Shown one piece after another: positions 25,933 to 52,256 of a stretch of 64,000 nucleotides of DNA (positions are counted from its first letter, which is position 1; each line of letters starts with the position of its first letter). This DNA is from Gracilaria domingensis (lineage: Eukaryota; Rhodophyta; Florideophyceae; Gracilariales; Gracilariaceae): positions 50,407-114,406 of the forward strand of contig VCMS01000178.1 in NCBI GenBank assembly GCA_022539475.1. The letters are read 5' to 3'. Position numbers and translations under genes: made by a program. Below the pieces are notes generated by a model. It did not search any database and was not told where the DNA came from. It was given only the letters and a program-made list of their open reading frames with translations.

Positions 25933-25934
25933 GT

Positions 25935-32150: not shown

Positions 32151-35100
32151 ATGACGTCGATCTTGACTGTCGCTCGACCTCCTTCTCCCTTCTTACAACC
32201 TTCCCTTGCAGTCTTTGTCGTCGTTTCTCGTTCATTTCTTCTTCCCATGGTCTACTACTGTACACATAAGAAGCGTGGGTGCCCCTTCGTTACTCGCCGA
32301 GGAGTCTTATCTCTTCAACAGCATTTCAACCATTGCCCGTTTCGTCTGAAAGCAGCGCTGGAAGACGACAATAGCCGGCCCATTCGGAGAAGCAAGCGTC
32401 TCAAGCTTTCCGCACCCGCGCCCGCATCTTCCGAAACGGTCACTGCCCCTTGTCGCCTTCCCGAGCCTCCGGTGTCCGAGGACATCGTCGACTCCACTCC
32501 GTGCGCCCCTCCCATTCCGGACACTTCGCATTGTGTTTCTCCTTCCCCGGGTCCCGCGTCATTAGAGCGAGAACACGGAAGCAGTTCCCGCCCAGTGCCT
32601 TCTGAGGAGGCCCTCGGTGATTTGCATATGGATTATCTCACGGTTTGTCTGGCTTCAGTAGCTTCCATCCTTGGTCATCGTGAGGCAGACGAGCTAATTG
32701 GGCTACTTCGGGACCCGCGATTCTCGCAAAAGCGATTCAACGAGACCATAACAAGTTCCAAGCGCTGTACAGAACTGAAGAACGCCATTTTCGAACGATA
32801 CGCCTCAAAGGACGGTTTCAATCGAAGAACTGTCTCGCCAGAAGGATGTAAGTTCAGCGCCACCCTCTACACGAGAGACCCCGTTCAGACACTTGTGAAA
32901 CAGCTCCAGTTGGCTAACAACGAAAACACATTCTTCCACCCTATACCTCAGACCCACTCCACGAAAATATCTCACCCCATGTCCGGCTCTCTCGCAAGAG
33001 ACGCCACCTCAAAACTTAAGGAAATGGTCATGGGCTCTTTGGATAGTAGAATAGTGTGGTACTCCCAAGAAATAAGTTACAGTGAATCTTTCGTAGGTCT
33101 TCTGCAGGTATACACCGATAAGTCTTCAACAACTCTAAAGCAAACATCGGTTACCGCCTATCCTCTTCACCTCATATTTCTCAACTTCTCCGACGAGCTT
33201 CGCCGTAAGTGTATCCGTGATGACCTCACAGTAGTGGCATACTTCCCTACCACACTGATCGAGGTTTCCGCATCTGAAGCAGACGCAATGCCATTTGTTT
33301 CTAGCAAGTCTCTACGCGAGTCCAGGATGCAAATCCTTCAAGAATCTCTTCGTCAAGTCCTGGAGCCCATTCTAAATCTCACGCAGAAAGTTTTTCAGTT
33401 CATCGGGGAAGACAAACTAAGTCGAGTGTGCCATCCTCTGCTTGCAAGTTATTGTGCGGATATTCCTGAGGCTAAGGACATTCTGTCCATTCTTCATGGG
33501 ACCAAAACGGAAAGCCCGTGTCATAGATGCAAAGCCCCTCGCTCATCTTTATGCAGTCCTATTCCCACCTCATTCAACGGACGTTCTCAAAAGCACACGA
33601 AAAGCATCCGAAAGACATACACAGCTATCTTGCAACATGCACAAAAAGACGAGGCGGAAAGACGTCCACGTCGTGCGAGGGAGAGGAGATCTCAAGCGGA
33701 TACTCTGATGCGTTCAAATTCCATATCTCTCATTCCTTCGTTCCTCGAAACTTCCGTAAGCCTTGGAATGATCCCGGGATTGTCTCCATACAGTCTGTTC
33801 TCATTCGAACCATTACAAACTTGCATCTCGGCATCTCAAAGTTGATAAAAACGGCCACAATCGAGAGACTGCAGTCAGACACCTTGTGCACCACAATAGG
33901 AACATCTGCATCGCGTTCATTTCGAACGATACGCACCCAACTCCTCAACCATGCAAACGCAATTCTAGCTGCCATAGAACGCGATTCTCCTGCCAAAGGT
34001 TTACATATCGATTTCTCCACGCAGGAGAAAGGCAAATCTTTGAATGGTATCTTCACGAAAGACGGTCTCCGTGGAATGCTGGAGGCCAAAAACTACAAAG
34101 CACTTGACATGGTCTTTCCCTTCATAGGAGCATTCTTTGACATATGCTGTGGAGAACAGGACGTTGCCCCAATCACAACCGTTTTCTCTCAGTACTCGGA
34201 CTTGCTCTCGACCTTATTCAGATACAATCGTGACCCGTATTGGACTGAAAGCTCTCTCCTGTGTCTTAGTTCGGAGATTGAAGCCTTCAAGCGTTCCGCA
34301 ACAAAGACTCTGGCGGATTTTCATCCCTCCAGACTGGGAACTCTGAAGTTTCATCTTCTCGATCATCTCGTGGACGATATTCGCCGTCTGGGAAGTATCA
34401 AGTACTACGACGCAGGCATATACGAACATGCACACCTGCTATTTAAAAGACACTACAAAAAGACGTCCAGAAGAACAGCAACGGCTGTGGAGGAGACTAT
34501 TCGCTCCATTGAGCACGGACATGTTAGAAAGCAATGGAATGGCAATACTCCTTACCAGCGTAATCCAGGTTTACCAGGAACTTCCACACAGCTTCCTCGG
34601 TTTGCAATGAGAGGGCGTTCTTTCACTTTACGAGCTCTTCAACATTGTGTTTCAAGTATGTCCAGTTCAAAAACATGGACTGCTGTTAGAGAAATGTTCT
34701 CAAGTACGGACACAAGGTCGATTCTTGATCAAATTGGTGAACAGGCCCTTCCTCCTTTCCTCAGTCTCGTGAAAGAAACACTGGATGAGCACTCTATTAC
34801 ATACTTCCCAGAAAAGACAAGGATAACTCTGGTGAATTCGGCCCTCGTGAAAGGCGGTTTCGTTCCGACTCTTGAACACTTCGATTCGTCTTCTAAGGCA
34901 CTTAAGCTGGGACGACCCAAATACCCCATCATCCAACGTGTCTTCGCTTCTCCAGCATTTGGTCCCAGTAGAAAGCCAAAGTTTTCCACTGTATTGGTAA
35001 GCGGAGAAGATTCAGAGACTTGGGTTGCCCAGGTAGTCGCTCTGATTCGAATATCTCTCCTTGATTCTGCACTTACCGCACCAGAGGTGGCATTCGTCCG

Positions 35101-35425
35101 GTATTTCGAGGTTTTACCCCCCGCAACAAACATCGACCACATATTGAAATGCATATCTTTACGGTGGGCTACAAACGATGAAAAGAACCACACTCTTCCG
35201 TTCCCTCGTCATTCCAAAGCGGAGACTATCGTAGAGTTAACTCCTTGGTACGGGATGGTTCCCGGCTTCTGCACTACAGGGAACTGTCGATGTTGTTCGA
35301 TCAAACTACCCTGCCCACCTTTTTGTCCTCCACTTCAATGGTTTCAACACCGATTCTACATCAATCGATTCTATCATGATTCAGATGAAGGACCAACTGA
35401 GCACGTTGATCTTGTACAGCCTTAA
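32151..35425 (+). pseudogene. Plavaka-like (CMC superfamily) transposase, one frameshift
   Basis: Two overlapping frames (32151-33845 and 33527-35425) together give a protein of about 1,080 residues. The N terminus has a single zinc-finger-like CTHKKRGCPF with a paired H/C. The first frame holds the family core: YTDKSSTTLKQTSVTAYPLH, LIFLNFSDELRRKC, then CHPLLASYCADIPEAKDILS and SPCHRCKAPR, the signature of Plavaka transposases. The second frame continues with LHLGISKLIKT, HLLDHLVDDIRRLGSIKYYD and IYEHAHLLFKRHYKK, which match the C-terminal part of the family. The frames switch between about 33640 and 33740. It should cut and paste the element; the break suggests this copy cannot. It points into the element from its left end. 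Confidence 0.75.
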
Positions 35426-35609
35426 ACATTAAGGGCTCCATCCTCTACATGTTCACCTTGTGGTGCCTTTTCTTGTGATCCTGTGTTACTTCCGAAATCG
35501 TTCATGTCCATTTCCTTGAACTCCATATCCCCTTCCTCGCATTCACCAACGAAACAATCGCTAATAGACCCCAATCTTCGGCTCACACTGTCAATAAAAA
35601 ATTGTTCTT

Positions 35610-37142
35610 TCACAGTGAGGTAAAGTCTTCCGTTCGACGGCATTCGATATCCAATGTAGCCTCTCTCATGTCATTACCAAGAACCTTAGTCCAATCTTCC
35701 GTTGTCGTTCCAAAATTATGAAACTCGCTGGAATTGGTCCTCAAGACACGTTGCTTAACATCCCCCAGAACATTCTTTAAACACAGAGGTAGCAGTTGAG
35801 CAAACTTCTTTGTAAACAGTTTCTGTCTCTGGCCACCCCTTGACACATCCGTACTTAGAAGGCTCACAACCGTCAACACCCAAGCGTCCAAACGTGCGAG
35901 CAACAGTATTGTGCCATCTAAAAAGGTGCCCGTATCCTTGTCTTCCACATCATACCCAATAAACTCCTTCAGTACTTGTACCCCGTCACGGTTTTGGAAG
36001 AACAAGTCTTGATCTTCCGTCGGCATATCCTCGACATTGTCCGCATTGGAGTACTTTAGACGAACAAATGGGGCTTTTCTCCGCCATGAAGTGTTCGGTA
36101 CACCATTTTCGTCAAGACGCAGTATGTTCTCCTGCGCTTCCTTCAACTGCATTGTGAGTTCGTCTGCATTCTCTTCTACCAGCTTTGTTCTTCTCCAAAT
36201 CAGATCGTACCCCAGGAGCAGAAATAGTTTATCCCTCGTATTTCTCTTTCGAACGCCCACGACGTCACTCATGGTCTGCCGCATTCTCTGCCTAAGGCAC
36301 ATATCTGCACATAGTTCCAGTATACACCTGTCGGTAAGAGATGCTTTTCTAATACCTTCCCAGCTCAACTCCTTCAACTCGCTTTCAACCATTTTCTTCA
36401 GCAAAGCATCTGGCCCCCCCTCTACCGACGGTGTGAACATGCCAAAACTGCCCAAGAGCTCCACGGGGTTTTTAGGAACCATGTATGAACCACCTTCCTC
36501 CGGCTCAATAAGCCCTTCCCCACTCTCAGTTGCGTCTGCCACCTTCTCGGCACGGTTACCCCAATTTCGGGTGAGCGACTCACCTTCGAGCCATAGCTCA
36601 CTTGTTTCTCTCCTTGCCCACGTCAGCATGTTGTGATACAATGCTCGAGCAACCCCTCGAAACTCGTCGCACACCTCAATTTTATGCTTCTTTAGACCTG
36701 TCTGCCCAGGTTCACCAGCACGTGTACTCCTATCTCCCTCCTGTTTCAGTGCCCCTCTTAGCCCTTCAATGACTAGATCCTTCTCTTCAAGCCTCTTTTT
36801 CAAAGCCGTACTCTGCTCTTGGGCGACCTTCACTAGAATTCCCCGAACCATCAAGTCCTCTTGTAGCGTCTTAACCTTTTCTTTCAAGCAATTCAGTTCA
36901 TTTAAAAGATCAGGTCTGTTCATAGAGCTTGAATTCACACCAGTTTGGATATCTTCCGTTATTTCCCTAGCTTCTTCGGCGACAGGCCCCGGTAATGCCG
37001 CAGGATTCGGTGTTATTTCGTTATCGGAACTATCCTCATGTGCCATAGCCTTAGACACGAGAGGCTGCAGGCGTTCTGTGTCCACCCTTGGCACGGCTCC
37101 GAGCTCCAACTCCCGTATCTGTCCTCCTCCATGGCATGGCAT
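35610..37142 (-). CDS. Coiled-coil protein of the giant element, function unknown
   Basis: A 510-residue frame read leftward. Residues 80-130 are a strong coiled coil (LNELNCLKEKVKTLQEDL; STALKKRLEEKDLVIEGLRG). The C-terminal 250 residues are helical without known motifs. Upstream of 37142, to about 37815, Ser/Gly/Arg-rich coding-like pieces lie in other frames and repeat the motif (P)SGSGQ(E/Q)G, so the real N terminus (perhaps MGITPRKRNS at about 37815) has been lost by frameshifts. It may be an accessory DNA-binding or structural protein; I cannot place it in a family. Confidence 0.5.
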   Translation of the reverse strand: MPCHGGGQIRELELGAVPRVDTERLQPLVSKAMAHEDSSDNEITPNPAALPGPVAEEAREITEDIQTGVNSSSMNRPDLLNELNCLKEKVKTLQEDLMVRGILVKVAQEQSTALKKRLEEKDLVIEGLRGALKQEGDRSTRAGEPGQTGLKKHKIEVCDEFRGVARALYHNMLTWARRETSELWLEGESLTRNWGNRAEKVADATESGEGLIEPEEGGSYMVPKNPVELLGSFGMFTPSVEGGPDALLKKMVESELKELSWEGIRKASLTDRCILELCADMCLRQRMRQTMSDVVGVRKRNTRDKLFLLLGYDLIWRRTKLVEENADELTMQLKEAQENILRLDENGVPNTSWRRKAPFVRLKYSNADNVEDMPTEDQDLFFQNRDGVQVLKEFIGYDVEDKDTGTFLDGTILLLARLDAWVLTVVSLLSTDVSRGGQRQKLFTKKFAQLLPLCLKNVLGDVKQRVLRTNSSEFHNFGTTTEDWTKVLGNDMREATLDIECRRTEDFTSL

Positions 37143-37815
37143 ATCAGATGAATTGGGCCTCGTAGGAGCTGCAAAGGCCCCCGTTCTGGAAAGCGGGGAA
37201 GGTCGAAAGTAACTCGTCTATCAGTTGTCTCTCGATTTCTTATTGTCTTTCTCCCTTGTCCGGACCCATTGCGAGGCATGATACAATTCATAGCGGCCCC
37301 AGTTCTAGAAGACAGGGATGGACGTGACGATCTTAATATACTAGGGCTCTCACGACTTCTCGTCATTGTCCCTTGTTGTCCAGATCCACTGGGCGGCGTA
37401 ACCCGCGCCCCAGTAGCTCCGGTCTTCGATATCGCCGGGGACATGAAGGTTTTGGTGTCATACGAACCTCTTCGGTTCAGTTGTCATGCCCTCCTGTCCT
37501 GACCCGCTGGGCCGAGTTACCTCATCTTCTTGAGGAGCAGAGACAGATGCACGATTTGCATTATCGGCAGTTGACGGCACGACATCGTTCGCTGATCCAC
37601 GAATTCTTGACGCAATCCCGGAAGACGCTCCGCTGCGAGATGGGCGAGAGAGTCCTGTAGAAGGACGCCCACTGACTCTCTCCTTCGTCGAGGACGACTT
37701 CCGTTTAGGAAGTGCGGTGCTTGTAGCCTGATTCGTATCATCCGATGCTCTTCTCTTCTTCTGTCCACTCTTGTTCGCTGCGTACTATTTCGCTTTCTCG
37801 GCGTTATACCCATGC
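37143..37815 (-). pseudogene. Frame-broken N-terminal region of the coiled-coil gene
   Basis: Low-complexity sequence in at least two frames, with PPSGSGQQGT, PRNGSGQGRK and RPSGSGQEG repeated about every 45 residues. A G-rich strand tract (C/G-run at about 37853-37878) precedes it and may mark the promoter edge. Confidence 0.4.
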
Positions 37816-38060
37816 TGTGGAGATAAACAGGGTAATGAAACGAAATTGTTGGGGAGGGGGGGAGGGGGTGGGGGGGGGTGCATGGTTCAGATTTCCGGGA
37901 GACTCCGCAGTTCCTGCTTTTTAGGAATTTGAGGTGCCCAATGGGTCGCAAATATCGCCGTTACAGATGAAGAGCTCCAGTGTACATGTACAACAACGCG
38001 TATTGCAGGCAGCTGCAACACTCACAAGCATATTTACTTTCTATTCGGTACTGAACTCAT

Positions 38061-39903
38061 CTATTGCTCCAATGTCAGAGCCCAGTCCCAGGCGTACTGC
38101 TCTCCGTAGTTGAAATACAACTCTTCGCCCCTCTCAATATCTCTTACTGCTCTACAACGAAGTAGAGCATAGTTAGAAAGGTCGACTTGAACTGTATCAC
38201 GGACTTCGCTTCCACCACCTGCACATTGGCACTTCGAGTCCTGTTTGACCGGGGCTCCGATAAATCGGGATCCCCGGCATGATATCCGGCGTCGTTAATG
38301 TAGCCCCCGATACAAAAAGGCGCCGGGACAATGTAGACTTCGCTCTCCTTTCTATCCTGAGCCTGTCCTGGTCTGTTCCTCAGGTGCAGAAACTCCGTAC
38401 CAGTCACAGTGACCATCATAGAAAACAACTTGTACCGCACTGGAGTTGCTCCGAGACAGCCACTTCCATACGTTAAGTGTCTTTCCTTCCGGTTCGTCAG
38501 ATCCGTGTATACCAAAGTTCCATAGAAATGACAGATAGTTTCCCCAGCCAATATCTTATGTTCCGTGAACACCCCCATACCAGCACGGGGATGTCGAATC
38601 TTAGAAGATGCTATATGTAAGCGATAGCGATTGGCTTCAACAGTCAACAGCATATGCATATCCATAGATTCAGAGCTCCTCGGTACTTCTCCTCCCAAAG
38701 ATCTACAGTACGCTGTCCACACTTCTCGACAAAGTCCCAGTCCTTCCAGTATCTTCCTAGGAACTGAGTAATATGTCCAGGCATCACTTGGTACTGGGGG
38801 TAACCAAATGGAGCCTCCCATTCAAGCCGACCTCGGTCCCGATGTGGAACCCGTTCATAGGTCGTTGAAGCCGCATCCACCACCTCCTGTTCAACCAGGA
38901 TGTCATTCTTCCCCCCGCGAATAACTTCGGCCATAAGAGTCGTTAGATGGTGCTTCGCATGGCTGAAACATGGCCTATTCTTCTCGCACCCCAAGAACTT
39001 CCTATGCTTTGTCAGCGATAGGCACGCCATACCCGTAGAAAAAGTTCCCGCGAACATGTCCATGACAAGATCACCCGGTCTTGTGAAGCGACATATCAAC
39101 TCCTTCATCAACTCCCTCGACTTCTGCTCCGGTCTTATGTACTGCCCACCTGGTACTGAACTACCTGGCTCATGTACCTTCCATGTCAACCACTCCCCCG
39201 CTCTCGGTTTGGCACCCGGTCAATTACATTCCTGTTAGCCGGGAAAGTGAAGGAATGAAATTGTTCTCCTCAAATGGAGTAAGACTGGCTTCCTCCGATG
39301 GTCGCAATCCACGCTTCACCCCATGAACGGCGTACTCCGTTACGGGCTGTATCCCAAACTTCCGTGGATTCCCTCCAACATTACTGCGATCCCGGATGAA
39401 CACCAGTGGATTCGCATCCACTTTAAACGAAGGCATGAGTTCTGGTTTACCTTCGCTTCCAGCTTCATCTTTCGTACTCGCCGTTTCCGAAAGTATCCTG
39501 TGCCAACATGAAACTGTGCCATGGCACAGAATATAATGAAGTGCCCACCTGACCGAAGCGCGGAACTTATTAAGTCAGCCGTACGGATCATGTCTTCCTC
39601 ACTGAAGACATCGTGACCACTATTCCGTTTGTTCCTCTTCCTTCGAGTGTTAAAGGGAGGGTCTGTTAGGACAAGCTGTGCCTCACCCCATAAAATCTCA
39701 CTCTGATTCACAAACGTTTCGTGTGTGTGCCTCAGGTCCTTCATGTCACAGTTGTACGCTACAAAGTGTGACTTTCTCATCCCCTTCCACACCTTGTCCA
39801 TATTCATTCGAAGGAGACTGGATATCCCCTTCATGGGCGGCTCAATACCAGTCTTTTGGATGTTGTAACCGGCAACCCGAGATTCATGCTCCGCAAGATT
39901 CAC
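38061..39903 (-). pseudogene. N6-adenine-type DNA methyltransferase continuous with a SET domain
   Basis: Read leftward across several frame changes, the order is: LVLTDPPFNTRR (the DPPF catalytic motif of N4/N6 amino-methyltransferases, near 39660), SGGHFIIFCAMAQFHV, PLVFIRDRSNVGGNPRKFG, VHEPGSSVPGGQYIRPEQKS, then GDLVMDMFAGTFSTGMAC (SAM-binding motif I, near 39060). Motif order DPPF before FAGT is the beta class (N6_N4_Mtase). About 110 residues later comes a SET domain: RAGMGVFTEHKILAGETICH, GGYINDAGYHAGDPDLSEP, SANVQVVEA and, in another frame at 38061-38150, AVRDIERGEELYFNYG. It would methylate DNA and, if SET is active, protein lysine. At least four frame changes make this copy dead or badly sequenced. 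Confidence 0.78.
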
Positions 39904-41192
39904 CGCTTCTCGAACTCGTCGCTATCGGAGCTCACGAGGTTCATATACTCTCGACGAGGTGGGGGTGGGGCAGACTTGGTCGAAGAAGGTTCGGCATTAC
40001 CGGAAGTTTTAGGGGTTTTCGTCAGTTCAATATCAGGTTTCGCGTGAATGCCGACATGGAACCCTGCCGCATGACGCATATCCTGTATCGGTTTCCATAG
40101 CAACTCCGAAAACTTCTGAAATCGAGCAGGCAACTCACCGGAGTCAGAGCTAGATACGGTATCCATCCGTATCTCCGAAAACTCTATCCAGTTCCTCATC
40201 TGATCAACCCGTAAGCTATAGAGGCTATCGTGGGTGCATATGGTTTCGAGGTCTGTCAAAAACTCCTTAGCCAGTATTCGCAGGTTTGTATCGCATTCAT
40301 CACTCAAGGTCTCCACCGATCCACTAGTACTGCTCTGTGGCACATCCTTTGTGTTGAATCGAGTACTCTGGCTCGGCGGGGCATAACCAGACTCCCGTGT
40401 CTCTAGCGCTGTATACTTCAACGTCTGCATATTCATGTAAATGTATGGTTTCACCATGTGCTGAACGTTCGTGTATCCAAGATGAGCCGCAAAACAACTC
40501 CATGCCCATACGACCTCACTGATAGCGAATCCCAGTCGATCACAGTTGTCTTTGGAGAACGACGTAAAAGTGGGTATGTACACAGATGGTGCATGGTTCA
40601 CTTTTCGTTTCTTTTTCGGTTGTTTCTTCTTCATCATTCGGATGTTGTCGTTCTCTCCCATTATGTGGCCGAGGTATGATAAGTATATAACGACCTCAAA
40701 TGGGTTCACAGCTGTTGGTGGGATGAACACTGTCGTCTTCAGAACCTGCTTTCTCCTGGTCATGAAATAACCAACCAGGCATCGCACCGGTAGGTATATA
40801 CCCATATCCATAGAGAGAAGGAAAAAATCGCGCAGTCTCTGGTCCTCATCCCCGTCCTTCTTGTCAAGAAGCTTCGTTACAAGATATCGCTGTTCCACAG
40901 GTTTGTTATTCACAACACTCTTTCGCAGCTGTTGCAGTGTCAAGTTCTGCAGGTTCTTGGAGTTAGTGGCCTCCTCAAACATCTTCCTTGCCTCCGGAAT
41001 ATCCTTATAGTTCTCGGCGCAGAACTCTATTAACCCTCTAAACCCCACGTCCCGTGGCCGATCAGGGCCTCCATCGCTGTTTGCCAAAGCATCGCGAAGA
41101 ACCAAGAAAAGTCTGACATATGCATGGAACGCCGGAGGCGGAGCACTCATGTCGATAGGATGTATCTCCTCTCCAACATCGGTGGAATCCAT
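39900..41192 (-). CDS. Unknown 430-residue protein, probably N-terminal part of the methyltransferase-SET protein
   Basis: The frame starts at ATG 41192 (or ATG 41150) and stops at 39900, where the methyltransferase frame begins with no ATG of its own. A basic patch KKKQPKKKRKVN (residues 190-200) is a likely nuclear signal. Other parts are helical with no known motif; the tail is Ser/Asp-rich (LVSSDSDEFEKR). Because the next frame opens without a start codon, I think both were one protein before a frameshift. TTTAAA at 41222-41227, about 30 bp upstream of the ATG, would be the TATA-like box. Confidence 0.55.
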   Translation of the reverse strand: MDSTDVGEEIHPIDMSAPPPAFHAYVRLFLVLRDALANSDGGPDRPRDVGFRGLIEFCAENYKDIPEARKMFEEATNSKNLQNLTLQQLRKSVVNNKPVEQRYLVTKLLDKKDGDEDQRLRDFFLLSMDMGIYLPVRCLVGYFMTRRKQVLKTTVFIPPTAVNPFEVVIYLSYLGHIMGENDNIRMMKKKQPKKKRKVNHAPSVYIPTFTSFSKDNCDRLGFAISEVVWAWSCFAAHLGYTNVQHMVKPYIYMNMQTLKYTALETRESGYAPPSQSTRFNTKDVPQSSTSGSVETLSDECDTNLRILAKEFLTDLETICTHDSLYSLRVDQMRNWIEFSEIRMDTVSSSDSGELPARFQKFSELLWKPIQDMRHAAGFHVGIHAKPDIELTKTPKTSGNAEPSSTKSAPPPPRREYMNLVSSDSDEFEKR

Positions 41193-41204
41193 CGCTTCAG
41201 CGCA

Positions 41205-41986
41205 AACAACGGAGGCGAGCCTTTAAATGGCGACTTACGCTGGGCACCCCCGCTTTCGGCAGCTCCTCCCAGCGCACTGCCAGTCTCGTCCGTGTCCGTG
41301 TCCGCTCGGAGCGATAGCGTCGCGTGTCGGCCACGTCGCGATTCGGAGCTATTGCAACGGTCCCGTATTGTGCTAAAAGTCGCGGATCAAGTGGGTGTGA
41401 AGCGCTAGTTTTCTCTAGTTTGATATATGTGCACGGCGTGTGCAGCGAAATCACTGCCGGAAGTGCCAGGGAGGAGTGTTTTGGGAGGTCTCCGGAGGCG
41501 CTGTCAGAAAAATCGTGCCAGAAACGTGCCCGCGAGGCGGGGGGCGGGGGGGGGGTCCGGTCGTGTTAGGGTAGCCTACCCTAACACGACCGACCCCCCC
41601 CCCCCCCGCCCGCGGGCACGCTTCTGGCCACATTCCGGTGCCTTCCCGGGACCTCGCCAAAACACGCCGCCGCGCAGTGATTTCGCTACACCCGGCCGCC
41701 GGTACGTTGGCGCCGCTGTCCACGTGTATTGCGGGAGTAGGCTGTACATGGAAGTGAATGAGTGTACTCTTGACTACTATGCAAAGCATTTGAAGAGCAT
41801 GATTAGAGAACGCGACCATTGCTCGCGTGAGTCATCATTGCGCGAACTCCACGACTCTAAAGCGTACAATCAGTGTGCGAGCGGCCACGGACAGGACACG
41901 GACGAGACTGGCAGTGCGCTGGGAGGAGCTGCCGAAAGCGGGGGTGCCCAGCGTAAGTCGCCTTTAAAGGCTCGCCTCCGTTGTTG
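41205..41986. promoter_or_regulatory. Bidirectional promoter built as a 0.8-kb inverted repeat
   Basis: The left arm (41205-41574) and right arm (about 41576-41986) are inverted copies; the outer 110 bp of each arm are almost identical and each contains TTTAAA (41222-41227 and 41963-41968) pointing at one of the two divergent genes. At the centre, 17-bp arms CGGTCGTGTTAGGGTAG and its complement meet around a single C at 41575, flanked by long G and C runs. The inner core contains TTAGGG/CCCTAA. The duplication would give the methyltransferase-SET and ParB-dioxygenase transcripts the same control. The centre is close to the midpoint of the whole element. Confidence 0.75.
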
Positions 41987-42044
41987 TATCGTCCAGAGCG
42001 AGCGTATTGTTGATATACACCTTTCACTGCAATAGCTGTTCAAC

Positions 42045-44642
42045 ATGAAGCCAACTCGTGTTCGAAAGCGTACGCAAAGCGTGACTCCTCGCACTCGGCG
42101 GAGCACTCGATTATTGCAAGGTGGAATGCGGGTTTCTCTGCAGATGGATATTGAGGATGAAGGAAAGGTGATAGTCGGGGAAGCGTTGTTGCATGGAATT
42201 GGAAGTGTTCTACGCCGCGAGTTGCACGGGAAGCAATTGGACCCAGGTCTTGTGGTGGTTCATAATATTCTCATCAGTCGAAGCGGTCAGACGTTCTACC
42301 CTTACCGGGCGGAGGGCCTGGATCTTCCACAATATATCCAGGATCTCCGGACGGCCGCTCCTTGGGATGAGAAAATGATGGAACCGGTGGCAGCCAGCAT
42401 TCCGGCGTCGAAGCGAGGAACGGTGAGCGCTATGAGTGAGGTGATGACGCCGACAAGCCGCACGGAGCCAATTCGAAGTTCATCAACACCGAGAGGTAGC
42501 GCATCAGTAGCACCTCCGCGGGCAGGTCCGTCGTCTGTTACGAAGCGGTCTATGGAGACGAGAGCATCCCCAGCTACGAAGCGGACAGGTCAAACAAAGT
42601 CTACCTCCGCTACGAAGCCCACTGCGTCGAAAAGGGCTTCTCCTGCGATGAATCAGACCGTCGACACAAGGGGATCTTCTGCGTCGAAACAGACGGTTCA
42701 GCAGGGGACGGCTGTGCAAGAGGAGGAAGATGAGATCATGAAAGGTCCCCTTCCAGACGCGGATGCGCAATCCGCGCAAGGAGCTGGTCCATCTGTACCC
42801 CAAACTGCACCAGAAACTGCGGAGCAGCAGGACGATGACGTTGTGCTTCTGTCCGCAAGAATGGCACGTTCAAGTGTTTCTGGCGAGCGGTCTGGAACAC
42901 AAGGGACACCTACTCGGAGCAAGACGTACAGACGAATTCGTCAGAAGGTACCAAAGGTGAACCTCAATCAGTACCGGATGGTTGTTGTTACTGTTGACAT
43001 CACTCTGGTGGACACTCCGCCCAATTTACTCCGTGGAGTAAGTAAACGCCACGTTGAAGCCCTTGTGAAGAGTATGGAGGAGCGGGGGATATTGCAGTCG
43101 ATGGGTTCTCCAGTGGTGGCCTTACAAGATGCTACTACGGGAGAGAGGGATACTGACAAGGGACGCCTAACGAAGAAGTGCTTCATTGTAGATGGTTTGC
43201 ATCGTCTGAAAGCTATACAATATTTGGCAGCGACTGGTGCACCGAAGTGGAAGCGATTAGCCAAGTTTTGGCGTTGCAATCTGCTGATACGAAGAGATGG
43301 GAGGCCCATTGGGATGAAGGAATTGTTATGTGTTGCTTCGTACCTCAATGAGTCGACGAGTACCATGCGAAGGATGATGTTTGCAGACAAGATACACTCT
43401 ATAGTTAGTGTGGTCGCCATTCTAATTGAAGATGTTGAGGGGGTGACGCCGGCAGACGTGGATCCTGCAGAAGTGACAGAAGTGTTGAAGGAGAGCCAAC
43501 TGATTGGGACTGTGCAAGAGCGTCAGTACCTGAGATATGCCAATGTCGCCCTGCAACTCATGTCTCGTGAGGGAATGCTGGCCCATTTCGAGGATATATG
43601 TGAGACTGTGAGTGACATAGGTCTCACACATCTGTCCCATACTCCGCTATATGTTTTGGATGCCGAGGAGTTTTCCTTCATTCTTGATTGTCTTCAGATG
43701 TTTCTATTGAAGGGCAAGTCGACGAAGACAAAGCAATGGAAAAGCTTTGAGGAGGTTCGAGGTTTCTTTTATGATAGAGCAGTGTCTCTGTTCCGCGCGG
43801 CTAGAGCAGTGAGGAATGAACTGAACGAGGAAGAGTCCATGGAAGTGTTCCTGAAACGCGAAGTCAGTCTTTCTGCTCCATCGAATGAAGATGACGTTGA
43901 AGACCCAGACAACAACGCAGCTGTGTATCAGTTCCTTTTGGGACAAGTTGTGAACTTCAACACATTGCCGCGTGTTCGGAGCAGGACGAACTCAATTAGA
44001 ACTGCCACGACTTCCGTTCAGAATCGATTGCGGACGATGCTCAAGGTAATTCCGCCCCCCGCACCAGTGAAGCAGTCCGTGACGAAGAGGAGGACTCCCG
44101 CTGCTGCTGCTGCAACATCTGCCAGTGAAGAAGGGGAGCCGCGAAGAAGTGCACGAGAACGGGCGCAGGTGAGTTATAGGGAAATTGAGCACGGCCGAAA
44201 TCGAGGTGCCATAGAAGTTCTGGATAGCTCTGAAGAAGAACAGCGGGCTCCGCCGAGGAAGAAACGGAGAAAGACTTTCACACAACAGATGAGATCTACT
44301 CTGAACAGCATGACACCGGATGACCTGATGTCTCAACTAAATGAACATGTGCTGAGAGGAAGGTCGATGAAGGTTCAGTTCGTGGCATTGGGAGAGGGAG
44401 CGAATGCAGAGAACGCAGGCAGTTCTGCATTTGTGGATGACGATGAGCTTCTTTCTGTGACAGTTCCACGGGTTGTCACCGTCGAGAAAGATGCTGCGCC
44501 AGACGATCAGCAAGAGACAGGTGGGGGGTCATTTGATGACGAGTTACCTACAGCTCTTCCGGAATCTGAGGAGCACGGACTTGTTCGAGGTGACCCATAT
44601 GATGGCCCACGAACCCATCATGGTGCGGGTATGCCAGGCTGA
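42045..44642 (+). CDS. ParB-like domain protein of the giant element
   Basis: An intact 865-residue frame from ATG 42045. After a basic start (KPTRVRKRTQ) comes a conserved-looking region around residues 28-110 (MRVSLQMDIE, LRRELHGK), then 170 residues of Ser/Thr/Lys-rich repeats. Residues 305-420 are ParB/sulfiredoxin-like: VDITLVDTPPNLLRGVSKRH, VEALVKSMEERGILQ and the nucleotide-binding motif FIVDGLHRLKAIQYL. A helical domain follows (MMFADKIHSIVSVVAIL; YLRYANVALQLM), then a basic, low-complexity tail with PPRKKRRKTF. ParB-like folds bind DNA and CTP or act as nucleases or kinases; which applies here is unknown. The same gene, degraded, lies at 60875-63418. It is followed at once by the dioxygenase in the -1 frame. 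Confidence 0.75.
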   Translation: MKPTRVRKRTQSVTPRTRRSTRLLQGGMRVSLQMDIEDEGKVIVGEALLHGIGSVLRRELHGKQLDPGLVVVHNILISRSGQTFYPYRAEGLDLPQYIQDLRTAAPWDEKMMEPVAASIPASKRGTVSAMSEVMTPTSRTEPIRSSSTPRGSASVAPPRAGPSSVTKRSMETRASPATKRTGQTKSTSATKPTASKRASPAMNQTVDTRGSSASKQTVQQGTAVQEEEDEIMKGPLPDADAQSAQGAGPSVPQTAPETAEQQDDDVVLLSARMARSSVSGERSGTQGTPTRSKTYRRIRQKVPKVNLNQYRMVVVTVDITLVDTPPNLLRGVSKRHVEALVKSMEERGILQSMGSPVVALQDATTGERDTDKGRLTKKCFIVDGLHRLKAIQYLAATGAPKWKRLAKFWRCNLLIRRDGRPIGMKELLCVASYLNESTSTMRRMMFADKIHSIVSVVAILIEDVEGVTPADVDPAEVTEVLKESQLIGTVQERQYLRYANVALQLMSREGMLAHFEDICETVSDIGLTHLSHTPLYVLDAEEFSFILDCLQMFLLKGKSTKTKQWKSFEEVRGFFYDRAVSLFRAARAVRNELNEEESMEVFLKREVSLSAPSNEDDVEDPDNNAAVYQFLLGQVVNFNTLPRVRSRTNSIRTATTSVQNRLRTMLKVIPPPAPVKQSVTKRRTPAAAAATSASEEGEPRRSARERAQVSYREIEHGRNRGAIEVLDSSEEEQRAPPRKKRRKTFTQQMRSTLNSMTPDDLMSQLNEHVLRGRSMKVQFVALGEGANAENAGSSAFVDDDELLSVTVPRVVTVEKDAAPDDQQETGGGSFDDELPTALPESEEHGLVRGDPYDGPRTHHGAGMPG

Positions 44643-44660
44643 GACCGCAGGAATGGCAAG

Positions 44661-45961
44661 GGAAGAACGTAATTGAGCACAAGGACCCCTGGCTCAGAGT
44701 CATTCACTTGCCGAAGGGACATAGGTCGGAGCTGCTAAGTGTCTCGAATCTCAGAGATGTACACCATCTTGTCTTTTGGCACGCTGCAAGGGCTGAACAT
44801 CGCCTACGGGCGGAGACATTTGGTATGCAGTATCCTCGTACTCGACCGACAGGTATGGATGATGAAGAGGTGCTGTGGGTTGCTGCGAAGGAGCATGACG
44901 AATTTGGGCAAATGTTCTTCGCCCGAATGCAAGCTGAGCTAAGGCAGAATGGATATTGCGTGCTTGATGGCTTTGCGACGGATAATGGTGTCCCTAAATG
45001 GGAGGAGTTGGAAGAAGTTCGGGAGTTCGGAGATGTGTCGGGGAAGTTGGTGGACTTCTTCGAGAATGAGTATGGAGCGATGCCGGATATACGGAAAGGA
45101 GAGGAACAGAAGTCGTTTGTTCAAATAATCAACGATGATGAAGGATGGAAGGACGGTAGCGATGGACCATTTGAGGGGAGAGTGATGTCGACACGTTGGG
45201 GTACGGTGGAGAAGCCGGAGGATAATGAGGAGCTCAGGTGGGTTGTAAGGTCGCGTGCTTTACTTGATGTTCGAATGGGTACAATTGCTGCGGCTTTGGG
45301 ACTATGGGACAATGAAAGGGAAGCTGTGAAGATGTACACTCCGAAAACTGGTGGTCGATTTCTGGGGACGACGAGAAAGTGCAAGCGCCAGACGCTGCAC
45401 ACCGACTTCAGTGGTCTGGTTACGAAGGAAACAATGAATACTGGCAACCCCGGATACTTTGTAATGGCCTCTGGGAAAGAGGGCTTTCCTCTCTGGGTGA
45501 GCGCTGGAAGCCATCAACTGGTGGGGATGAACAACCAACAGTTGCGAGTGATGTCGGAGGTGTATCCAGCGAAGAAGATAATCATCCCACCGTACTCTGT
45601 ATTCGTGGGCCGTGGTGATGTGACACATGCTGGAGCAAGTGGGAAGGACAAGGTGGATAGGCCCGAGTCTATGGATTTGCTGGTTAGATACCACATGTAC
45701 ATGGTACCAGAGGGCTACGCACTACCTGATGCTGTTCATCGGGTGCGGGATTTCCGACCCACGTTTGTCAATGGTGACGAGGAGGAGGAGGCGGAGGATG
45801 AACTGTTGTCCGATAAGGAGGGTGGGGCGGTTGACATGGACGAAGACCAAGTGGTCGTGGAGATTGGTGTGGAAGCGGACGCCGGTAGAACCGAAGTGCT
45901 CGAGAGTAGTAGTGATGACGATTTGCCAATAATGAGGCTGCGAGCGCCTCGAAGTGGATGA
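44661..45961 (+). CDS. 2-oxoglutarate/Fe(II) dioxygenase of the giant element
   Basis: The double-stranded beta-helix signature is present: the iron ligands HxD in RQTLHTDFSG (45398-45406), the distal His in GRGDVTHAGA (45626), and Arg for 2-oxoglutarate in LLVRYHMYMV. PKTGGRFLGTT and GYFVMASGKEGFPLWVSAGSH are core strands. The paralogue at 59586-60840 keeps all ligands. A very acidic tail ends both. Homology with the paralogue begins at least at WLRVIHLPKGHRSE, yet the first ATG is only at 44828; the frame is the -1 frame of the ParB gene and overlaps its end. So it is read through splicing (GT 44590, AG 44660 would join both frames), frameshifting, or a lost start. Next to a DNA methyltransferase, a nucleic-acid substrate is attractive but unproven. 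Confidence 0.75.
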
Positions 45962-46224
45962 GAATGAGATGATTAGTAAATTATGTGTGTCTTGCGAGTA
46001 TTAAGAGTAGTATACTATTACAAGGCTATACATATGAACATAGAAAAGGTGCGGCAGGCTGGTAATTGAACAAATGTCAAACGTCTTTGGTCCAGTTGCG
46101 TCTAATTGCAACATGCCAAATGCTCGGTATCGTTAACATCATTGGTGGCACCAGTCAATTCGCAATTGAACATGTAGCGTCCTAACATTCTGAAACTGCA
46201 CTTAAGGTTGCTTTTAAGAGAAGT

Positions 46225-47172
46225 ATGAAACTGAGAAGTCTATACAGTTCCTGTCTATGCGGTACTTGTGGCAGTATGGTGACTGTATCAGGAAAAATGG
46301 CAGAGGAACAGAGAGACTTGGCGGAAATTTCACCAAATACCTTGTCTAAGTTCATATATGCCAATGGTTACGGTATATTAAGTTCCGTTGATGGAACGTT
46401 GAGAAGAGAAGGAGAGTCAATTCCAGAAGAAGTTGTGAAGTGTATGAAGTTCATTGACGAACGTGTTGGTTTCGGACTTGTCACAGGGGGTGATGTGGGC
46501 GACGTGGAGGGGAAAATGGAAGGACTCGGAGACTATAAGTTTGGTGTCTCGGCGAATCATGGAGCTTTCCTGCGTTTCTCTGACGAGAGGGAAATTAAGG
46601 GTGCATTCAATGATCACACCCTTGACCACACTGTTGACGGACTACTGTTCCTGGCAAGGGATTTGAATAGGAGGCATGGTATTGTGAATGATGATGACAA
46701 GGGGTTCGTGGAGACCAGAAGTGATAGTGGCCTTCCCAATTTCGTGTACAACAAACTGTGGCAGTGGAAAGAAGAAGTGGATTCTGCTATTGGGGACCTG
46801 TTGCAGAAGATGGATGCGTTTGTTATCTATCCCGGCGATAAAAGTTGCGAAATTGTGGACAAGCGATACACAAAAGGAAGCGGAGGAGAAAATCTTGTGG
46901 ATAATGAACCGAGATTTATTGATACGGATGACGTCGTGACGTTCGGAAGTGCTTTGAGCGACGGGCCTTTGCATGAGGTAGGCGTGTACGGCGTTCACGT
47001 CAAAGAAGATTGTATCCCGGGTGGAGTACACAACCTGTTCGAAAGCGTGGAGGATGTACATTCGACAATTATGTTGGTGGCTCTGTTGTACGGCTACGAG
47101 GAAAAGCAGCACGATAAAAACCACCATGATCATAAAAGGGTATTGAGATATATACGACACTTTTATTACTGA
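46225..47172 (+). CDS. HAD-superfamily phosphatase-like protein with lost nucleophile
   Basis: A 315-residue frame from ATG 46225, homologous over its length to the gene at 47195-48058. Motif I should be DxDGT; here it reads LSSVDGTL, with Ser54 where the nucleophilic Asp must be (Asp56 is kept). Motif II is VTGGDV instead of ATGRDI. The sugar-phosphatase-like middle (RSDSGLPNFVYNKLWQWKEE) and the motif IV region (TFGSALSDGPLHEV) remain. It is therefore probably a pseudoenzyme, although the frame is intact. It converges tail to tail with its paralogue, 22 bp apart. Confidence 0.75.
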   Translation: MKLRSLYSSCLCGTCGSMVTVSGKMAEEQRDLAEISPNTLSKFIYANGYGILSSVDGTLRREGESIPEEVVKCMKFIDERVGFGLVTGGDVGDVEGKMEGLGDYKFGVSANHGAFLRFSDEREIKGAFNDHTLDHTVDGLLFLARDLNRRHGIVNDDDKGFVETRSDSGLPNFVYNKLWQWKEEVDSAIGDLLQKMDAFVIYPGDKSCEIVDKRYTKGSGGENLVDNEPRFIDTDDVVTFGSALSDGPLHEVGVYGVHVKEDCIPGGVHNLFESVEDVHSTIMLVALLYGYEEKQHDKNHHDHKRVLRYIRHFYY

Positions 47173-47194
47173 GATCTCATATCATAGCTAAGTA

Positions 47195-48058
47195 TTAAGG
47201 CATCGTAGCACTTGAAACAAATTCCAAGAGCATTTCTAAACCATTGACACTTGCATTTTCTGTACCCGTACAGTTCTGCCACCCTTCTGATGGTCTCATG
47301 CACGTCCTCCACCCATCAACAAGATATGTTACCGCTGCTGGATGGTCTTCTCCCTTCACATGAACTGCCAGGGTTGCCATTTCATATAGAGGGCCATCAT
47401 TGGAAGCATTCCCGAAAGCAACGATTAAATGTGTGTCGAACTGGGGGTCGTTTTCAACCAAGGCTAGCGCCCCACTATTTTTCGTGAAACGAATGTCCCC
47501 TATGTCACAGTTTTCATCTTGAGGGTACGCAACCAGGTTCGGAAAGGATGTCAACACTTTTGAAATACCGGAGTTAACTTCTGTTTTCCACTTCGACAGT
47601 CCATTGTACGTGAAGTTAGGGAGTCCACTGTCTTTTCTAGTGCTCACCACTGCTTGTTGACGCTCTTCGTGAAGTCCGTGCGATTCATTTAAGGAGAGTG
47701 CAAGTCTCTCAAGTTCGGCTGCACATCTTTCGTAGCCTTCCCTGTCAAGGTCCTGATCAATTTCGGTACCATTGGATAATCTCACCCGTGCGCCTTGGTT
47801 TCCAGAGATGCCAAAAGTGTAGCCACCCAGGTGCTCCATGAAACTCTCGGCATCCTCTATATCTCGCCCAGTAGCAATTCCGAAACCAACGCGTGCGTTG
47901 ATGTACTTCATGCATTTGACTGTTTCGGCAGGAATGTTCTCCCCAGCTCTTTTCAGAGTACCGTCAACATCACTAATCACGGCGTAGCCATTTTCGAATA
48001 TTTCGTTAGCCAGCTGCTGAGGAGTTACTTCTTGGGCTCTAACTTCTGAGTTATACAT
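47195..48058 (-). CDS. HAD-superfamily sugar-phosphatase-like protein (Cof/T6P-phosphatase type)
   Basis: Starting at ATG 48058 it encodes 287 residues. Motif I is intact (ISDVDGTLKRAGE, Asp30 and Asp32), motif II is ATGRDIEDAE, the cap region has FGISGNQGARVRLSNG, and motif IV is VAFGNASNDGPLYEMA. Such enzymes remove phosphate from small sugar phosphates; the substrate is unknown. Frame and motifs are whole, so this copy could work. It and its inverted paralogue look like cargo of the element, since the related element on the right lacks them. The Asn in GNASND, where many HADs have Asp, is a mild oddity. Confidence 0.78.
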   Translation of the reverse strand: MYNSEVRAQEVTPQQLANEIFENGYAVISDVDGTLKRAGENIPAETVKCMKYINARVGFGIATGRDIEDAESFMEHLGGYTFGISGNQGARVRLSNGTEIDQDLDREGYERCAAELERLALSLNESHGLHEERQQAVVSTRKDSGLPNFTYNGLSKWKTEVNSGISKVLTSFPNLVAYPQDENCDIGDIRFTKNSGALALVENDPQFDTHLIVAFGNASNDGPLYEMATLAVHVKGEDHPAAVTYLVDGWRTCMRPSEGWQNCTGTENASVNGLEMLLEFVSSATMP

Positions 48059-48136
48059 GTTTTGAAAGCTTTCGAAAGGGTTCGTTTTGCAAATGGGTGT
48101 GGGTATACGAATGAGAAGGATGTGATTGATGTTCAC

Positions 48137-48683
48137 AAGGTGTTTCGTAGTATAAAAAGAGTCTAAGAACGACCATATACGGGTATTGTAGTACTGTTTT
48201 AAAACGTTACTAGGAGGAGAAGTTTTTGCATCGATTTGAAGTAAAGAAAGGATGATTTAGTCATAAATTATATGTACGGGTTCAAGTGGGTAAAGAAAAC
48301 TGTAAATATCTTTAACATGAGCTTAGAAATCAAGAAGAGTAAAACAACCTCCATTAGGGTTGAAACCCATAAAAGGTTTACCTTACTTTATACGGGTGCC
48401 CCAAGTAATGCAAACGCTTAGTTCTTCAGAAATATCACAATTTTTGTACTTGTTTCGTTACTAGTATCGTGCACTTTAATGATATGGAATGACCATTTTC
48501 TATCTAGCAAAATCTTAGCGAAGTATTAGTGATAAGGATGTAGGATTTAAAGGGGCATATTTGAACCACAGAAGGACGAACAATATAAGTAATGTAATAG
48601 GAACAGGTCATTTCGATAAAGTAACTTTTATGTTTAACTATCTCTAAAAGGTTTACAACACCGAAAAGTCATGTGTTCTAACC
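48137..48683. other. AT-rich spacer, nothing seen
   Basis: No coding signal; much richer in A and T than the flanks, with no clear repeat. Confidence 0.5.
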
Positions 48684-49566
48684 TCAAAGCTGGGGGAATG
48701 GGGAGGGGGATAACTTTTCCTTAACAACGTTGACGTAGTTTGTATGAAAAGGAGCGGGGTCACCGCCTACAATGTTTCTTTCTTGGCGGGAAAAGTCGTA
48801 GAAGTACGCGTTCCTAAACTGAAAGTCGGAGAAAGAAGTAGGGAAGCCAACGAGAGTTTTCCCATATGCAAGAAGTCGCCCAACGGTCTCTTCCAGGTTG
48901 AAAGTAGTACCTGTCTTAAGCGAAACTATCTTCAACAGCTCTTTCATTATTGTGAGCACAACCGTACTGCACTCCGTAGCGACTACGTCCATAGGAATGA
49001 AACCTCTTGAGGCCCCGACGATGTTGAACGCTGATAGCCACACGAGCTTCTCATAATAGCTTACGAGAAATGTGTCTTCGTCGACAACCCCGCAAGTGAG
49101 ACCCATAGACCTAAACCTGTCTGCAACGTTGGAGGCCCACTTTCCTGTTGCGACAGTGAGACCATCCGGACTTTGAGGAGTGACACCATCCTGCGGAGCT
49201 GCGTTTCTTGAGGGGACACCAACGTATAGGACAACTTTTGAACATTTGTCCACACCGAGCTTCGAAACCAATGGTATGATGTCTCCATTCTCTGAGCGAA
49301 TAAGGGCAAGCCTGAATTACGGTCTCCAGGGTGTTCGTTCTTCCACAAACTAGTATCGGTACATCAGAAAGATGAGAGGTAGCAGCCATGCTGCAGAATT
49401 CGTGTGCGGAAATGACCGTATCTTCTTCGTTCGCCAGCATGGTACCTATACGCCCCCTTCCAACAATAACGGCCCGAGTCCTTCGGGCGGGAGATGAGGC
49501 CTGAGGGACGTCAGAGTATCTGGGACTCGGAGGCGGAGTGGGAGGCATGTCGGACTGGGAGTTCAT
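48684..49566 (-). pseudogene. Ketopantoate-reductase-like (ApbA/PanE) oxidoreductase, one frameshift
   Basis: Read leftward from ATG 49566, a Pro/Ser-rich start leads to RTRAVIVGRGRIGTMLAN, a Rossmann GxGxxG motif for NAD(P). The frame breaks near 49310 (around TLETVIQA), and the rest lies in the next frame: ENGDIIPLVSKLGVDKCSKV, VDEDTFLVSYYEKLVWLSAF (the conserved Lys of the family is in YEKLVW) and a helical C-terminal domain. The combined length, about 293 residues, fits PanE-like enzymes. A single extra base explains the break. It looks like a captured host or bacterial metabolic gene; no pathway can be named. Confidence 0.6.
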
Positions 49567-49958
49567 TGCAAGTGTTCGATGTTTTTGTGTGACGATAAAA
49601 TGGAAGATGGGGCGGAGAACTGCTGGGGTAAAGAGTGATACTTAAGTACAAACGGTTGGGAAGCGCAGAACGGGAACATGGTTCACTTTGTGAAAGTGAG
49701 CGAAATGTATGATATGTGATTGTACTGAATGAATGATAGGGCTTGTATGAGACGACAAGCCACAAAGTGTGATGATGTTTTATGAAAGGTAGGTGGAAGA
49801 GTAGAAAGTGTGCAATGAATGAAACTGATTTCGAACCTGAGTTGTAAAGTAGTTGTAAAGTACGAGTTACGGGGAGCTTGAATACAGGATGAAAGGAGCC
49901 ATTTTGGCTTCATAAATGACGTGAACGGGTTTATAGCTTCACTCGGATTGCCATAATT
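49567..49958. other. Spacer, nothing seen
   Basis: Short frames on the reverse strand only, without motifs. It probably holds the promoter of the reductase-like gene. Confidence 0.4.
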
Positions 49959-50281
49959 AAAAGGATGGAGTTGGATTGCGCCCGAATACGTCTATAAAGG
50001 TCGTAGAAGCACTTATGAAGGAAGGAGTTGTAGACATGTTATTGTTGATGACGGTGGAGCCAGGGTTTGGAGGACAGGCGTTTATGGAGGGTGTTCTTGA
50101 TAAGGTGCGACATGCAAGGGAGTTGTACCCAAGAATAGGGATACAGGTGGATGGAGGTATTGGACTGAGTACTGTGAAAGCAGTAGTGAAGGCCGGTGCA
50201 AACATTTCAGTTGCAGGATCTGCCATCTTTGGCTCGAGTAACCCAGCTCATGTCATAGCTGGTTTTCGAAAGGTTGGTTAG
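49959..50281 (+). pseudogene. RPE: Ribulose-phosphate 3-epimerase, C-terminal fragment
   Basis: About 106 residues starting abruptly at DGVGLRPNTSIKVVE just after an in-frame stop, with no ATG there. Family motifs are excellent: LLLMTVEPGFGGQAFM, IGIQVDGGIG and AGANISVAGSAIFGSS. The normal enzyme has about 225 residues; the first half, with the metal-binding His-x-Asp, is missing. The enzyme interconverts ribulose- and xylulose-5-phosphate, a Calvin-cycle and pentose-phosphate step. The fragment is a captured piece of a host gene and cannot be active. Confidence 0.88.
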
Positions 50282-50352
50282 AGATAGTAGCATAAATTTA
50301 TTGTTTATTACATTGTTACCTTTACGTGTTATCACGACTATATTCTCCGTCT

Positions 50353-50675
50353 CCATTGGAGATGTATTTCTCTTGTATCACAACCGGGAAAGGATGTGAG
50401 AGAACATAATATATCCCCAGTGGACGCTGAGAGGGAGGATGAACTACTCTACGTGCTACCATTGTTACCCATCCGGTGTCGAGTGGTGACATATTCTTTT
50501 TTTGTCACAACCCACAAAGGATGTGACGGAAGAAGAACATGCCCCCAGTCGAGACAGAGGGTGAGCAACTCTAAGTACAATCACTAGTCCCTAGCTTGCC
50601 TCCACTGGCAATATCTTCCTGTTTTGCTATAACCATCGAGTGGGTTATGGTGGAAGAGAAAAATATCGCCGGTCG
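50353..50675 (+). ncRNA. Three tandem related hairpins, candidate structured RNA
   Basis: Three units of about 115-125 bases each fold into a long hairpin. Unit 1: CCATTGG (50353) pairs with CCAGTGG (50417), inner TCACA with TGTGA. Unit 2: GTCACA pairs with TGTGAC, outer TCTT-rich strand with AAGA-rich strand (about 50478-50555). Unit 3: CTGGCAATATCTTCC (50605) pairs with GGAAGA...ATATCGCCGG (to 50672). The loops share an AAAGGATGTGA-like piece in units 1 and 2. Primary sequence differs, but pairing is kept, which suggests compensatory change. Strand and transcription are not shown. No protein gene is seen in 50282-50910. Confidence 0.45.
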
Positions 50676-50910
50676 AGGCGAGGTGGGTGGGGACTATGTG
50701 AAGAGGGGACAGAGAGATGGCGCTTAAATAGTGGAAGGTGCGGAGGTGTACAGTAGATGTTTTGGCGGGAAATGGGATGAGGGAAACAGGGACAATCATG
50801 GTGCTGGATATAGCCCGTGTGGTTGGACAGTGGGGGTGGACAGCACAGTTTAGCTCGATTGCACTGTATCGCAGCGGAAACTTCGATCCAACTACTACTT
50901 CTTTCTGAAG

Positions 50911-51837: not shown

Positions 51838-52251
51838 AGCCGTTTTGGGGCGAGGCGGGTATACGAGAAGGGGGAGGGTTGTACACCTGACTTCTACAAA
51901 ATGACGTTTGCGGAGACGGAGAGAGAGGATGCGAACGCGTGATGGGCGAGAAATGGGTAAATAGCGGGGGTGGTGTGGACTGGGAAGAAGCGATGGGATG
52001 ATTGAGGTGGAATGAGTTGCGATTGGCATTGCAACATGGGAGAAAATGGAAAGGCAAACTAGCACGAGTGCAGTTTTGAGAGAGGGTCGCGGAAAAGAGT
52101 GAATGGGGTGGTGCGGCGAAGTAGAACCTCTACAAAAACTAGGGGACCCAAGAACTAAACTGCGCGAAATGGAATTTAATATTCCAAAATTTCTTAATTC
52201 TTTGAGTGCCAGCCTCTGCCACCCCCTCGCGCGCCCCAAATAGCCCCAAAA
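51838..52251. other. Right subterminal region of the giant element
   Basis: Non-coding. At 52121-52142 the reverse complement reads CTAGTTTTTGTAGAGG, matching the left terminus CTAGTTTTTGGCGAGG better than the outer end at 52255 does. So the right end may be double, or the 52143-52255 stretch is a separate small insertion. Confidence 0.5.
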
Positions 52252-52256
52252 CTAGC

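Follow-up and report, generated by a model that had tools for sequence, protein, structure and literature searches.

In the red alga Gracilaria domingensis, a 64,000-nucleotide stretch of contig VCMS01000178.1 (assembly GCA_022539475.1, positions 50,407 to 114,406 of the forward strand; the whole stretch is called the window) contains a Plavaka-type DNA transposon with two genes for putative epigenetic enzymes. One encodes an amino-methyltransferase joined to a SET domain, and the other a ParB-like protein fused with a probable 2-oxoglutarate (2OG)/Fe(II) dioxygenase. The element has defined ends with a 2-bp target duplication, the two genes diverge behind near-identical upstream boxes, both proteins are fusions, and the copy number in the genome is high. 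The divergent pair recurs in a diverged family (family B), and the ParB-dioxygenase fusion in a third (family C); the window element belongs to family A. We give a probability of about 0.5 to the reading that two co-regulated epigenetic genes travel on this cut-and-paste transposon and keep its elements transcribed or regulate their movement in trans against host silencing. Escape from silencing is our best guess at the role.

The transposon occupies positions 30791..52305 (forward strand, 21,515 bp). Its termini, CGTCTGT and ACAGACG, form a 7-bp inverted repeat and are flanked by the duplicated target AT. The window element was compared with nine other copies, seven of which had the same left end (30791) and three the same right end (52305). 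It interrupts a Ty3/gypsy long terminal repeat (LTR) element (22643..55581, forward strand) whose LTRs, at 22643-22942 and 55282-55581, are 98% alike. Seven other gypsy copies were continuous through the insertion point; gypsy homology ended on the left at 30790 and restarted on the right at 52306, with a 2-bp overlap, AT, in each of the seven. The empty sites mark this as a clean insertion that duplicated 2 bp, and together with the ends and the terminal repeat they confirm the claim of the original prediction, made from the same DNA, that the genes lie within one transposon. The flanks were also compared in the three other copies with the right end read, for C329 on the right side only. Copy C168 had TA at both ends, and the flanking pair of copy C81 did not match. 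Two other gypsy copies (L048 and L049) contain a right end of this transposon family ∼900 bp past the empty site; this second insertion place shows that the gypsy element has been hit more than once. The left part of the element also contains, at 31751-31837, an inverted repeat of 43 bp whose arms are 93% complementary and separated by a 1-nt spacer.

The transposase gene (32124..35425, forward strand) consists of two overlapping frames in the window copy, and the Pfam family Plavaka matched the window piece at 2.5e-18. A single frame of 1100 codons is present in copies C108, C49, and C505, and Plavaka (PF18759) matched an open-frame copy at 1e-18, with 68.1 bits against a cut-off of 26.3. In the passages of Kojima (2025; PMC12730594) that treat these elements, Plavaka is grouped with CACTA/EnSpm (CMCT) and assigned target duplications of 2-3 bp, and the termini of fungal Plavaka are given as TGT..ACA (A type) or CATCA..TGATG (B type). 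The 2-bp AT duplication falls within this range, and the termini CGTCTGT..ACAGACG match neither type. We call the element Plavaka-type, outside types A and B. The same source, in its passages on Kyakuja and Zisupton, gives target duplications of 7 and 8 bp, respectively (PMC12730594). Membership in the Kyakuja-Dileera-Zisupton (KDZ) group, which had been proposed originally, was rejected because the duplication measures 2 rather than 7-8 bp and the transposase is that of Plavaka by Pfam.

The methyltransferase-SET gene (38064..41192, reverse strand) is frame-broken in the window, where it was traced by tblastn pieces of an open-frame protein; in other copies it is one frame of 1055 codons, or 1045 amino acids from the first Met. 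Its N-terminal domain (39906..41192, reverse strand) belongs to no Pfam family and is conserved in relatives. The beta-class amino-methyltransferase region follows (38665..39909, reverse strand), with DPPF before FAGTFSTG and a match to N6_N4_Mtase, and then the SET region (38064..38665, reverse strand), which was recognized by Pfam in the open-frame copy L034 and in relatives. In L034, N6_N4_Mtase matched residues 506-743 at 3.8e-15, above the cut-off, and SET matched residues 873-1032 at 1.7e-7 (32 bits; cut-off 22.4). The window's own broken SET piece scored only 14.8 bits against the same cut-off. Both domains were also found in two relatives: an ENA protein of 1015 amino acids from a 7,972-bp contig (P0003), 41% identical over 98% of the length, and an open-frame family-B protein of the same genome (L053), 33% identical over nearly its full length. 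Their SET scores were 7.8e-6 (26.7 bits) and 2.2e-6 (28.5 bits), respectively. The catalytic motif precedes the S-adenosylmethionine (AdoMet) motif in L034 and P0003, as DPPF/DPPY and then F(A/S)GTFST; P0003 keeps DPPY, FSGTFST, and the SET domain, and L053 has DPPY and then YSGTFS. The originally predicted junction of a beta-class amino-methyltransferase with a SET domain is thus supported by two profiles above cut-off in one open frame and by the motifs kept in relatives. With the insertion evidence, these domain matches also establish the broader idea of a mobile element with genes of DNA- and chromatin-modifier type. DPPY is described as an N6-adenine motif and SPPY as an N4-cytosine motif in the relevant part of PMC8885841, and from its motifs the enzyme is probably an N6-adenine methyltransferase.

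The methyltransferase region resembles phage enzymes. The DNA methyltransferase group PHROG 67 matched it at 1.8e-23, and the top phage matches were annotated DNA methylases, some of them adenine-specific, with 24-29% identity over 85-94% of the region (best 15 of 103 records). Among viral contigs, three loci had distant methyltransferases. Methyltransferase matches were found in 29 plasmid records, one with coverage of 80% or more. In Streptococcus phage Javan179, the matching methyltransferase is named "chromosome partitioning protein," and a 690-bp gene so named is annotated in the region.

The ParB-dioxygenase gene lies on the forward strand and comprises a ParB/sulfiredoxin-fold part (42045..44642) and a probable 2OG/Fe(II) dioxygenase part (44708..45961). 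The two parts are in different frames in the window and form one frame of 1308 codons in other copies. The predicted ParB-like protein was confirmed in that the ParB/sulfiredoxin fold was found. The GERR-type nucleotide motif typical of CTPase ParB proteins was not matched, and DGxHR stood in its place in all five aligned sequences. Three families have open-frame ParB-dioxygenase fusions; these are 33-38% identical, and HTDF and GDVxHAGA are invariant among them. The window also holds a decayed family-B copy of the gene (59586..63487, reverse strand), recognized by tblastn of an open-frame family-B protein at 44-69% identity in pieces; the open-frame relatives of this copy are frames of 1326-1327 codons. 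Protein relatives were taken from the best-ranked part of the candidates scored. Among the matches listed, two G. domingensis proteins matched the ParB-dioxygenase protein with 93 and 87% identity over 78% of the query, and another G. domingensis protein showed 98% identity over 95% of the dioxygenase query. On the matches to the ParB-dioxygenase protein, a fungal origin of the DNA was rejected. The public Gracilaria gene models P0001 and P0002 bear the improbable names mediator subunit 15-like and cell-wall-anchored SasA, and they are without the part that carries HTDF and GDVTHAGA.

The original description of the C-terminal part as a dioxygenase with an HxD...H...R signature held in part. 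The HxD and distal His of the iron triad were present, as motifs, in six of six aligned sequences, but the 2OG-binding Arg after the distal His was found in four of the six, with Leu in L038 and L039, and family searches were negative. No family match to this part was obtained in Pfam, NCBIfam, or PHROGs (the best PHROGs row, an unrelated "holin," scored 0.011), and sequence comparison with the PDB yielded unrelated rows scoring 0.34 or more. No dioxygenase match came from modeling the core with AlphaFold2 and comparing folds. When the part was compared by HHalign with 44 of the 69 listed features of cyanophage P-SSM2, the five annotated 2OG oxygenases did not stand out, the best ranking 19th. 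A tblastn search against phages gave no result, and no ParB-dioxygenase relative was found in viral contigs. The Tet_JBP profile (PF12851) had no match in the alga's own genome, though control genomes gave none either, and there was no Pfam match on the proteins.

The C-terminal domain could therefore be no dioxygenase, or one that no longer binds iron, the ParB protein then being solely a DNA-binding partner of the methyltransferase. The empty searches, the failed fold model, the null HHalign comparison, and the change of Arg to Leu in two of six sequences make this a possibility to be taken seriously, if a minority one. Against it stand the His, Asp, and distal His, which do not vary among the sequences aligned from three families, and the C-terminal core, which is better conserved than the whole protein (48 versus 38% between families A and C).

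The two genes are divergently transcribed, and each has a 75-bp box upstream: one before the methyltransferase-SET gene (41223..41297, reverse strand) and one before the ParB-dioxygenase gene (41894..41968, forward strand). By BLAST the boxes are inverted copies of each other and 98.7% alike, in agreement with the duplicated upstream sequence noticed originally. A box precedes each of the two starts in the window, and the same holds for all nine further family-A copies that were fetched across the region. In five shorter family-A loci the box before the methyltransferase gene was present. In the diverged family C (L041, 4209-4257), 49 bp of the box were found at 86% before the ParB-dioxygenase gene. 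This remnant, next to a protein that is ∼38% identical, suggests a conserved regulatory or binding site. Family C aside, the fetched loci had no other box match at an E value of 1 or better, and the box was not seen in three B2 loci.

The layout was then counted over the genome. Family-B pairing was counted on rows chosen by hand, 70 of 79 for the methyltransferase and 78 of 150 for ParB; second fragments of a copy, rows of other families, and weaker fragments were left out. Among the matches listed, 44 of the 70 methyltransferase rows had a family-B ParB no more than 9 kb away, and each of these 44 pairs was divergent; the other 26 had none within that distance among the rows used. For family A, 150 of 151 methyltransferase rows, 52 of 52 ParB rows, and 70 of 70 transposase rows were used. 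Twenty-eight of the 52 listed ParB copies had a listed methyltransferase within 7 kb, divergent in 28 of 28 cases, and 24 had none listed. A listed methyltransferase lay within 7 kb of 23 of the 70 listed transposase copies, always in the expected orientation, and 47 had none listed; several copies lie near contig ends. Ends of the same family were spaced 10.5 kb (C60), 13.9 kb (C16), and 21.4 kb (C6) apart, as computed from their positions, and from the short spacings in C60 and C16 shorter derivatives of the element probably exist.

The genome of 77.9 Mb contains many copies. Matches numbered at least 100 for the dioxygenase part (680 first-look candidates), at least 52 for ParB (918), at least 151 for the methyltransferase (528), and at least 70 for the transposase (1789); left ends numbered at least 40 (610) and right ends at least 40 (634). 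Among the matches listed, the top score was shared by 15 of the 100 dioxygenase rows, one of them the window, and 71 of 100 were stop-free by hand count. So many near-identical, stop-free copies point to recent bursts. In the window copy itself, the transposase, methyltransferase-SET, and ParB-dioxygenase genes are all frame-broken, the methyltransferase-SET gene being spread over several frames. Introns as the cause were ruled out by the continuous frames in other copies.

Selection was estimated as the ratio of nonsynonymous to synonymous substitution (dN/dS) in open-frame copies chosen by hand. Five copies of the methyltransferase-SET gene gave 0.28-0.34, and three copies of the transposase gene 0.48-0.89. 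For the ParB-dioxygenase gene, values of 0.67-0.85 (three family-A copies) and 0.88-0.99 (B2) were obtained. Recent copies thus show clear constraint on the methyltransferase-SET gene and little or none on the ParB-dioxygenase gene. The motifs conserved between families imply long-term constraint on both proteins.

These data bear on two alternatives. The genes may be captured host, phage, or bacterial genes carried as passive cargo with no role for the element, as the phage-like methyltransferase and the near-neutral recent ParB copies would allow. We disfavor this explanation strongly, since both fusions and their catalytic motifs are kept across families that are ∼30-40% identical, the divergent layout is kept in family B, and a methyltransferase-SET fusion is found again in a protein of 41% identity. 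The genes could also limit the element itself: by placing repressive marks on copies of their family, they would let the copy number grow while the host survives. The high number of near-identical copies fits such self-limitation, and SET domains can be repressive. Near-identical copies imply recent, unrestrained bursts, though, as the 15 of 100 dioxygenase rows with a common top score illustrate, and we regard the explanation as improbable.

Base composition was examined as a trace of cytosine methylation. Between the window element and the nine copies, C/T differences amounted to 342 of 16,068 CpG sites (0.0213), 202 of 12,827 CHG sites (0.0157), and 824 of 42,569 CHH sites (0.0194), and the observed/expected CpG ratio in the element was 0.90. 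A strong decay signature of 5-methylcytosine (5mC) was absent from this comparison. The C/T difference at CpG is hardly raised, which speaks against a 5mC-erasing role in particular. Adenine or N4-cytosine methylation would leave no C/T trace.

The control of transposition is another candidate function. Here a methyl mark would tell element DNA that has just been replicated from older element DNA, in the way Dam acts on Tn10, a ParB-like coat would guide synapsis or excision, and the SET domain would modify a bound protein. Such a system would suit a DNA-adenine-type enzyme and a ParB fold, both DNA-directed, as well as one upstream box common to both genes, and there is no 5mC-decay signature that calls for anti-silencing. 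A histone-type SET domain is more easily explained by chromatin control, and we consider this role rather unlikely.

According to the favored reading, in which the pair counters host silencing, the methyltransferase would mark element DNA, probably at N6 of adenine, and the SET domain would methylate a histone or another protein. The ParB-like protein would bind element DNA and perhaps spread on it, bringing the dioxygenase, which would remove or change a mark; the C-terminal part would be an oxygenase that acts on a base or a histone. In trans, the pair would keep elements transcribed or set the time at which they move. We infer these steps with decreasing confidence: that the methyltransferase acts on DNA, that its target is adenine, that the ParB-like protein binds element DNA, that the C-terminal part is an oxygenase, and that elements are kept expressed. 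A bolder version, which we put forward tentatively, would be a complete self-acting mark system. One protein would both mark DNA with a bacterial-type adenine modification and methylate histones, and its divergent ParB-clamp partner would deliver an oxidizing eraser or hypermodifier to the same elements, with two HAD phosphatases possibly adding a further modification step.

Transposons with epigenetic enzymes are already known, with TET/JBP in fungi and SET in oomycetes, and the red alga is far from both. TET+ Plavaka, Kyakuja, Zisupton, and other DNA transposons of fungi are reported in the corresponding passages of Kojima (2025; PMC12730594). They share with the present element a dioxygenase-type gene beside the transposase and 2-bp duplications, and Plavaka is among the carriers. 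The element described here differs from those accounts in its red algal host, in a dioxygenase that cannot be recognized as TET/JBP and shares its protein with a ParB fold, in the added amino-methyltransferase-SET fusion, and in termini unlike both Plavaka types. PMC12730594 does not use the word ParB. HarbingerS and MuDR transposons of Phytophthora likewise have SET inside a cut-and-paste transposon, and the passage on them mentions neither a fused DNA methyltransferase nor a ParB-dioxygenase partner (PMC12730594).

The N4CMT protein of bdelloid rotifers, as presented in the pertinent sections of PMC8885841, is also a phage/bacterial-type N6_N4 amino-methyltransferase that is linked to transposons and fused with a chromatin domain of eukaryotic kind. 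It is encoded by a host gene, has SPPY, and reads histone marks through its chromodomain, whereas the red algal enzyme has DPPF/DPPY and SET, a writer rather than a reader, and sits inside the transposon. Giant repeats flanked by Plavaka transposase are described from Amoebidium (PMC11244446, sections on these repeats). Like the element studied here they are very large and multi-gene, with intron-poor genes, some of which have red algal relatives, but the genes reported there are tyrosine recombinases, and the words ParB and SET domain are absent from PMC11244446. The beta-class DNA methylases of phages (PHROG 67) belong to the same methyltransferase family and have prokaryotic hosts. To our knowledge, SET is not found in them. 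In the open-access literature searched, as far as its accessible text goes, neither fusion was described in a transposon, and no Plavaka element was described in a red alga.

New, as far as these sources show, are an amino-methyltransferase-SET fusion and a ParB-probable dioxygenase fusion whose divergent pairing is conserved across at least two diverged families. Provided that the enzymes are active, DNA and histone methylation would be linked in one mobile protein, a ParB-type DNA-binding module would be at work in a eukaryotic nucleus, and the element would be a test case for the question whether transposons write their own marks. The many near-identical open-frame copies in one 78-Mb genome make these ideas directly testable in an ordinary seaweed.

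The transposon contains further genes. A protein without a Pfam family is encoded at 35610..37142 (reverse strand) and forms an 832-codon frame in copy C171. Two genes for HAD-type phosphatases converge at 46225-48136, one at 46225..47172 (forward strand; Hydrolase_3, 5.3e-5) and the second at 47195..48136 (reverse strand; 3.1e-13). It is conceivable that they serve a further DNA modification step. An open reading frame (ORF) of no assigned family at 48684..49271 (reverse strand) is present also in copies C108 and C329, and further small ORFs of no assigned family lie inside the element. To the left of the gypsy element, at 20735-21004, there is a 78-nt direct repeat, with two copies that are 192 bp apart and 90% alike.

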